64,000 bases of DNA from an uncultured Thiohalocapsa sp. (GTDB taxonomy: Bacteria > Pseudomonadota > Gammaproteobacteria > Chromatiales > Chromatiaceae), in NCBI RefSeq assembly GCF_913063425.1, contig NZ_CAJXYK010000027.1, forward strand, positions 16,543-80,542, written 5' to 3'. The notes beneath the pieces are model-generated. The model was not told the origin of the DNA and did not search any database. It saw only the letters and a program-made list of their open reading frames with translations. The stretch's first letter is position 1; the number at the start of each line of letters is the position of its first letter. The translations under genes and the position numbers were made by a program. This document shows, in pieces, positions 10,390-13,883 of this stretch.

Positions 10390-10656
10390 GGTATCCCCAG
10401 GTTCAGGACTGGAAAGGCAGTGGCCTGGTGCACCCTTCCGACGGGAAACCGGACTCGGATACCAGCCGTCTCGCCGGCGCCCGGCTGACCGGGATCACCG
10501 GCTGGCCAGCCGGCCCGCCGGAGTCGCGGCTCAATCCAGCGTCGGCGGCGTCTGAGCGATAAAAAGGCACCTGCAGCGGTCGCCCGCCGGAAACGGCCTC
10601 CACATAATGTGCATTGGGAAGCGCCATGTCACGCAGACAACACAAGAAAGAAATAT

Positions 10657-10798
10657 CTCGCGCAGAGACGCGAAGACGCAAAGAAGAAGAGAAAAGCGTA
10701 TTGGTGACAGCGACCAACCAGCTTTCTTAAGCTTTGCGTCTCTGCGTCTCTGCGTCTTTGCGTCTTTGCGTCTTTGCGTCTTTGCGTCTCTGCGCGAG
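10657..10798. repeat. Inverted 8-bp tandem-repeat element (GCGTCTYT units)
   Basis: Left arm ctcgcgcagagacgcgaagacgcaaag (10657-10683) mirrored by seven 8-mers gcgtctct/gcgtcttt plus gcgcgag (10736-10798). Confidence 0.85.
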
Positions 10799-11131
10799 CT
10801 TCTTCTATTAGTCCCGCTGCGCAAGCCTCTTCTCGCCGCGTCGAAACAGCTTGCGACTTCATTTCAAGGTCGTACCCCGCGCGGCATGGGTGATCGCCCG
10901 GCTCCAGCAGCGCAGCTTGAGCGCCCGCTCGCCATCATGCTCGGACCGGAGAGCAGGACGGACCAGGATGCGTCCGCCCCCGCCGACGATGACCCAGCCG
11001 CATCAGCCCCGTCGAGCGCCGACACTGACCCACCGCGCCACGATCGGGGCGGGGGCGCGGGGGTCGCTTCGGCCAGCCCTGACCTTGTGCCGGACCGGCG
11101 GCCCTCTCACGGGCCGGACTCTGGCGCTCTG

Positions 11132-12599: not shown

Positions 12600-12694
12600 G
12601 CCCAACGATTGCACCAGCCCGAGCGCATGCTGCCGAGCCGCCGCTGACGCGGGCGGCTCGGCAGCATGCGCTCGGGCTGTGCATAACGTTATAG
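12600..12694 (+). other. attC-like recombination site 1
   Basis: GCCCAAC(g) ... AACGTTAT outer boxes; TGCAC/GTGCA inner boxes; long near-perfect imperfect-palindrome stem CAGCCCGAGCGCATGCTGCCGAGCCGCC / GGCGGCTCGGCAGCATGCGCTCGGGCTG. Confidence 0.7.
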
Positions 12695-12798
12695 CGCCGA
12701 GCAAAGCTCGGCGTCTCTTGCCGGGAGAAAGTCCCGGACGGGTAACGGCCAGCCACCCACCCGTATCGAGTGTTGGTCCGGTTGCGGAGCTTTGTGCC

Positions 12799-13470
12799 GT
12801 GCGAACAGAAAGCCGGGCAAGCGTACACAGAGAATCCTGTAGGCCGTAGGGGTGGTCGCGCACCCTGAAGTGCGCCTCGTGCGGATCAGGGCAGCTTCGA
12901 GAAAGCTAACCCGCGGATGGCGACAGTGTTAACGTCCTGGAAGCCAACATGAAGCACGCGCTAAGGGCGAGCGTGTGGATGTCCGCCGGAGTCCTCAGGC
13001 TGATGTATGCAGGAAGAGAGGCGTCAGAGAGCTCGGGAAGCCCCGAAGGCTCCTGTACGAGGTGAAACGATGAAACCGACCGGGCTGGGACACGAACGGG
13101 TGGAAAGCCCACTTGTTCACAGGCTGGCGGCGTGCGCTCGCGTGGAGTCGTCGAACAGGGAGCGCGCGGGCAGGCGGGAGATCGCCGCATGCCGACCGGG
13201 TATCTTATCGGGCATAGTAGTCGGAGATCGGGAAAGCCGGCCACATCGCGAAGGACCCGACGGCAGCACCCAGCTCGGAAAGGAAACTCGTGCCGGACAT
13301 GCAGGATCGGATCAACACGAGCCAACCTCACTGCGGGGACTAAGCAACTGGACCATGAAACGGGCAACTGTGACGGTCCGCTTGATAAGCTGGTGCAATC
13401 GAGGAACCGGATGCGGGAAAACCGCTCGTCCGGGTCTGTGGCGGGGGCTCCGGGTAACCGGAGTCCCTAC
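12799..13470 (+). ncRNA. ORF-less group II intron (about 672 nt; boundaries approximate)
   Basis: 5' GTGCGAACAG; domain III-like CATAGTAGTCGGAG; domain V hairpin GAACCGGATGCGGGAAAACCGCTCGTCCGGGTCT (13404-13437); domain VI hairpin GGGGGCTCCGGGTAACCGGAGTCCCTAC; no reverse-transcriptase ORF. Confidence 0.7.
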
Positions 13471-13522
13471 GCCGGGTCCCTTTCCGCGGAGTCCAAATCG
13501 TGCGCCAAGACTCTTCGCTTCC

Positions 13523-13801
13523 GTGCTTCTCGTCTGCGTCGTACAGACGCCGGCGACTGCAGGCGGCACTCAAAGCTGTTACGACTTGGTAGAAACCTGC
13601 AAAGAGAACTGCGACTCTGATGCGGCCAATCAGCAGGAACCGTACCGAATGGCCCAATGTCAATATTCGCTCATCAGGCAAGGGCAGTCTCGGAGCGTCC
13701 GGGTTGGAGCGAAGTATCGCGCTCTAGGCGTTTCCGTTGCTGACGGGATACAGTGGTTCCGGCTTGGCACTCACGCCGAATACGACAAGCTCATGGGCTA
13801 A
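13523..13801 (+). CDS. Small secreted protein, integron cassette 2 gene (start uncertain; possibly completed by splicing)
   Basis: Frame ...FASVLLVCVVQTPATAGGTQSCYDLVETCKENC... ending at the attC-like site; signal-peptide-like N-terminus. Confidence 0.45.
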   Translation: MLLVCVVQTPATAGGTQSCYDLVETCKENCDSDAANQQEPYRMAQCQYSLIRQGQSRSVRVGAKYRALGVSVADGIQWFRLGTHAEYDKLMG

Positions 13802-13883
13802 CTGCATCATCCCAACCGCTTGCTGGCCAAGCGTCGCTTCGCTCCCCTGGCCAGCAAGCGCCGGGCTGCGCACAACGTTGCAC
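13795..13883 (+). other. attC-like recombination site 2
   Basis: GGGCTAAC ... GCGCACAACGTTGCAC ends flanking a 13-bp perfect stem CGCTTGCTGGCCA/TGGCCAGCAAGCG; overlaps the stop of the preceding ORF as in typical cassettes. Confidence 0.6.

Follow-up and report, generated by a model that had tools for sequence, protein, structure and literature searches.

The integron cassette array within the 64,000-nucleotide stretch of DNA analyzed here (the window) contains an ORF-less group II intron of approximately 785 bases which, judging from its sequence, is one member of a little-noticed family of ORF-less introns found across purple sulfur bacteria. The intron most probably belongs to a lineage of ORF-less deletion derivatives mobilized in trans by related IEPs (probability of about 0.75). 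The host belongs to a Thiohalocapsa-like genus of the Chromatiaceae. An ORF-less group II intron within the cassette array had been proposed in the initial annotation, and this was borne out by the covariance match with RF02005 (94.4 bits, E 2.7e-25), the sole group II match above the Rfam gathering score in the 64-kb window. The features of the locus are as follows:

12600..12691, + strand: attC site 1, forming the 5' exon; inverted repeat (fold z -10.2), sharing 92% identity with the intron-free attC that adjoins intI
12692..13476, + strand: whole ORF-less group II intron; boundaries taken from copies at other attC sites
12728..13002, + strand: domain I, matching positions 1-225 of RF02005
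13283..13348, + strand: IEP N-terminal remnant, ETRAGHAGSDQHEPTSLRGLSN, compared with ATRAGHAGSGYREPTSLRGIAN in the IEP of Ca. Thiodictyon syntrophicum
13350..13379, + strand: D4 hairpin in place of the protein gene, GGACCAU-GAA-ACGG-GCAA-CUGU-G-ACGGUCC; 18 pattern matches and covariation
13404..13436, + strand: domain V (RF00029), with AAC at the triad position and A.G opposition
13440..13473, 3' end to 13476, + strand: domain VI (RF00029 and covariation), with a bulged UA
13480..13801, + strand: decayed ORF of the downstream cassette, ParE-like C-terminal half (PF24732, E 2.7e-5)
13807..13883, + strand: attC site 2, R' core GTTGCAC and hairpin, read by eye from the sequence

As for the 3' part of the intron, D5-D6 were confirmed where they had been placed initially: a local search with RF00029 gave 31.5 bits (E 6e-4) for 13402-13477, short of the Rfam gathering score of 40. 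Covariation among 17 sequences additionally supports both hairpins and the bulged branch-point A, and A 13469 in the bulged UA of D6 is the probable branch point. The D5 triad, AAC with A.G and not AGC with G.U, is common to the related IEP-encoding introns. The folding of 12692-13476 was better than that of dinucleotide shuffles (z -4.5, 20 shuffles); the EBS1-IBS1 coordination loop was very variable in the alignment.

Both ends of the intron had to be moved (the caret below marks the insertion junction). The GTGCG at 12799, previously taken as the 5' end, is internal to domain I. The Rfam match starts at 12728, ahead of the interval proposed initially, and the true end was placed at 12692, approximately 107 bp upstream of the former position, since other copies lose their likeness only upstream of GTTR^. 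The CCCTAC previously taken as the 3' end corresponds to the branch-point bulge of D6; the real end is at 13476, since the outer stem of D6, GGCG/CGCC, covaries (GCCG/CGGC or GCGG/CCGC in relatives). The R of GTTR varies among the copies in genome G045 and was therefore assigned to the exon. We infer the outermost base or two at each end from comparison of the copies. In other genomes, the 5' junctions are GTTA^GTGCGCC in near-identical G037 copies (one with ATTA), GTTR^GCGCGCC in five G045 copies and GTTA^TCGCGCC in most others. On the 3' side, the D6 outer stem is followed by GGA or UGA; beyond this the flanks diverge, commonly starting with GGC or GGT (compare GTTRRRY). The canonical termini, 5' GUGYG and 3' AY, are absent from the window intron, which starts with UAGCG and ends with CGCCGGG. 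Its relatives have U[C/A]GCG...GGA/UGA termini, and GUGCG and GCGCG 5' ends occur in some related IEP-encoding introns. On the evidence of primary and predicted secondary structure, the window element keeps the catalytic RNA of a group II ribozyme (D1, D5 and D6) and belongs to group II by these domains, not by its termini.

The attC site 1 comprises R'' GCCCAAC (12600-12606), a 28-bp perfect hairpin (12615-12642/12652-12679) and the R' core GTTA (12688-12691), which is split by the intron (GTTA^intron). With the 5' end corrected to 12692, the distance between attC and intron, given before as approximately 105 bp, becomes 0 bp, and the insertion lies exactly at the attC R' core, directly at the stem-loop. 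The polarity of attC was deduced from the direction of the genes and from the attC nearest intI; bulge counts in automatic folds were noisy. In the host genome, the intron-free attC, which is 92% identical to attC 1 and ends with GTTGGGC, adjoins the integron integrase gene. At this locus intI is directed leftward and the first cassette rightward, with attC oriented as in the window, and this arrangement fixes the polarity. In addition, the cassette genes found by other copies (ParE-like, HicA, HicB) are co-directional with the intron. The host copies thus occupy R' on the top strand of attC and point the same way as the cassettes; both the cassette genes and the intI-proximal attC speak against a bottom-strand location opposite to the cassettes. 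The ORF of the downstream cassette (13480-13801) has no plausible in-frame start and is chimeric, with a secreted-peptide-like start joined to a ParE-like toxin end. Elsewhere in the window, at 10649-10806, 8-bp CTTTGCGT repeats are arranged head-to-tail opposite an inverted 44-bp arm.

Classical IIC-attC introns are reported to lie in the attC bottom strand at R'', opposite to the cassettes, with the target TTGT^T, and one earlier top-strand group IIC case has been cited, from Enterobacter cloacae (PMC7923331). Like the IIC-attC introns (S.ma.I2 type), the window intron is a group II intron located directly behind an attC hairpin, at a conserved core. The differences are the lack of an IEP, the location at R' of the top strand with the orientation of the cassettes, the target (GTTR^RRY, compared with TTGT^T) and the ends, U[A/C]GCG (5') and GGA (3') in place of GUGYG...AY. 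Since strand and orientation differ, the intron was not classified as an IIC-attC intron, though it is IIC-attC-like by target. The initial annotation correctly noted a difference in attachment from the classical type, but this difference consists in the top strand and the cassette orientation, not in distance from attC.

A second full ORF-less copy with 92% identity was found in the host genome at an unrelated attC (C46:2037-2809). Beyond the attC core, the flanks of the two copies are unrelated on both sides, which indicates separate insertions or recombination and not the transfer of one cassette. Partial copies include a 5' piece of approximately 230 nt on contig C19 and a 3' piece at the end of contig C66. 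Each host copy that retains its 5' part lies directly behind an attC hairpin, and the likeness begins straight after the ...CGTTR core. A 50-nt 5' stub at an attC (C46:3228; L006 3228-3277) abuts a unit resembling a REP-associated transposase gene.

No reverse transcriptase gene is present inside the intron, in agreement with the initial annotation. The IEP remnant comprises 22 residues within ORF 13007-13801, and its frame breaks off after ETRAGHAGSDQHEPTSLRGLSN. All ORF-less copies retain the D4 hairpin, with approximately 20 codons of the lost gene upstream of it. The hairpin consensus is GGRCCNU-GNA-ACGG-GYAA-CUGU-G-ANGGUCC with a GNRA-type tetraloop; the window hairpin has one A.C mismatch. 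In 17 distinct sequences the outer hairpin cells are 98% paired; the search pattern partly prescribed the D4 pairs, and the N-N pair alone is a test independent of it. This free pair is UA in 11 cases, GC in 3, AU in 1 and GU in 1, and A.C in the window. The entire structure contains 19 double-change cells versus 5.4 in shuffles (17 sequences). The predicted minimum-energy folds of the C46 and G176 copies contain the D4 hairpin. The G176 copy was missed by the pattern and found by the covariance model; it keeps the hairpin with a compensatory U-A for C-G.

A search of GTDB contigs with the degenerate D4-hairpin pattern revealed 18 matching stretches, mostly in Chromatiaceae: Thiohalocapsa, Thiodictyon, Lamprocystis purpurea DSM 4197 (three), Rhabdochromatium marinum DSM 5261 and other Chromatiaceae MAGs. 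Matches also occurred on single MAG contigs labelled Thiohalomonas, Desulfobacteraceae and Desulfocapsa; these labels are possibly binning errors. The hairpin-bearing ORF-less copies, most of which formed the training set of the family covariance model, scored 143-170 bits, and the rest scored 120 bits or less. Among 369 genomes sampled from the whole class, G439 from another family scored 155 bits and G355 scored 133 bits. The hairpin pattern had no match in viral contigs, and the plasmid scan gave one extended match, in a 485-kb plasmid of Ca. Thiodictyon syntrophicum. Two more deletion derivatives lie at 437-850 and 1506-2602 of locus L165 (G149:C3, plasmid NZ_CP020372 of Ca. Thiodictyon syntrophicum); one of them is only approximately 414 nt long, with the 5' 183 nt fused to D5-D6. 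A similar form of approximately 247 nt, behind a hairpin not looking like attC, was noted in G004:C93. In G045 (L079, L088-L091), five copies of a related intron begin with GCGCG. Several of them measure approximately 1.1 kb and apparently retain an incomplete IEP gene, which may reflect an independent loss of the ORF.

In related introns with a length of approximately 2 kb, D4 encodes an RT/maturase (TIGR04416, 335-350 bits; YADD). Intact related IEPs were found in Rhabdochromatium marinum (G013; TIGR04416, 335 bits, with YADD) and in the complete genome of Ca. Thiodictyon syntrophicum (G149), and in these two genomes they occur together with ORF-less copies. The IEP-encoding intron of Ca. 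Thiodictyon syntrophicum lies behind the apparent reverse complement of a Lamprocystis-type attC and appears to be located in the attC bottom strand, like the classical type. In the 117-contig draft of the host genome no cognate IEP was found, and the search for a full-length IEP-bearing copy suggested by the initial annotation likewise gave none; since the genome is a draft and one contig ends within a copy, the host may still encode one. As for other host reverse transcriptases, the one on C35 is a frameshifted group II RT that is not closely related (approximately 43% identity), and that on C17 is only a fragment. Those on C80 and C26 look CRISPR-associated: the C80 RT (L030, G000:C80) adjoins a cas1-like ORF, and the C26 RT (L032, G000:C26) was called from context only.

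These data would best be explained if the intron had arisen by deletion from a class C-like group II intron that targets integrons. The D4 protein gene would have been lost and substituted by a compact conserved hairpin, with D1, D5 and D6 retained. The IEP maturase/RT of related introns, acting in trans, would splice and reverse-splice the ORF-less copies into the attC core GTTR^RRY, just 3' of the attC hairpin, and the D4 hairpin would presumably serve for IEP docking or as a compact stabilizing cap. We infer the splicing, the mobilization in trans and the hairpin role of the ORF-less introns from these comparisons. As expected for introns mobilized in trans, many copies share the D4 deletion and IEP remnants; a driver IEP in the same genome was not found in the host draft but is present in G013 and G149. 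Counting against this explanation are the noncanonical UAGCG/GGG-GGA ends, the D5 score below the gathering score, the lack of a detected host IEP and the polyphyly of the ORF-less copies.

According to the tree of D1-D3, the ORF-less copies do not form one clade: IEP-encoding introns are placed between them at two points, and a topology constrained to ORF-less monophyly was rejected (p-AU 9e-10). One deletion with simple spread afterwards is therefore insufficient, and the tree calls for recombination or exchange of D4. The hairpin form may be old, with the ORF gained or lost, or D4 may have been swapped by recombination; mosaic introns could also explain the tree. A further proposal, which is only tentative, is that the D4 hairpin, far from being a scar, is a module under selection. 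In that case the introns would form a SINE-like non-autonomous integron intron lineage in which the D4 insert, hairpin or protein gene, is swapped between ribozyme backbones, and ORF-less and IEP forms would interconvert, using the attC top strand and altered splice termini.

The nearest precedent is provided by the ORF-less TeI3 introns of Thermosynechococcus elongatus, which have a D4 ORF deletion, an IEP remnant, a D4 structure common to all copies and IEP-encoding drivers (PMC2882425). The deletion, the remnant and the shared D4 structure are also seen in the window family, with related IEP-encoding introns as candidate drivers. TeI3 differs in being confined to one genome and in its intron class, EBS/IBS homing and single deletion origin (PMC2882425), whereas the window family has integron attC targets, occurs in several genera, shows ORF-less polyphyly and has no cognate IEP found in the host. 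By analogy with T. elongatus, the family is most likely a non-autonomous lineage mobilized in trans. In Clostridium tetani, the intron C.te.I1 has no ORF and its genome encodes no related IEP (PMC4424553); the window intron resembles it in having neither an ORF nor a related cognate IEP found in the host. Dependence on a trans-acting maturase, one of two fates suggested initially, is supported for the family. The other, an immobile relic, may apply to the window copy, which may now be stranded, given the A.C mismatch of its D4 hairpin and the failure to find a cognate IEP in the host genome.

It is unlikely that all ORF-less copies are dead relics of once IEP-encoding introns that lost the ORF after insertion and never moved in trans. 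Such an origin would agree with the mismatch in the window hairpin, the numerous truncated copies and the failure to find a cognate IEP in the host, but the hairpin and the IEP remnant recur at unrelated attC sites and in several genera, and compensatory changes in the D4 hairpin and D6 suggest that the ORF-less RNA is under selection. Still less probable is that the element has ceased to be an intron and now serves the arrays as a structured RNA or in expression, such as a leader or a promoter carrier for the cassette that follows. Within the host genome it invariably lies in sense orientation ahead of the next cassette, and its splice termini are non-canonical; however, D1, D5, D6 and the branch-point bulge are retained, the U[C/A]GCG start is shared by IEP-encoding relatives, and the sense orientation is also found in G057, among these relatives. 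That the long open frame 13007-13801 encodes a conserved protein and the structure is fortuitous can practically be dismissed, given a covariance match far beyond chance and a stop in this frame in the 92%-identical copy; as the initial annotation had supposed, the ORF is not a gene and corresponds to D2-D6 plus the downstream cassette.

If mobilization of the ORF-less introns in trans is correct, a multi-genus integron-linked family of this kind would mean that integron introns have their own non-autonomous parasites, and the D4 hairpin would be a natural module for studying what the IEP must recognize. The known use of attC by introns would be broadened to the top strand, the orientation sense to the cassettes and altered splice termini, and the splicing of sense-strand introns out of cassette mRNAs would become testable.
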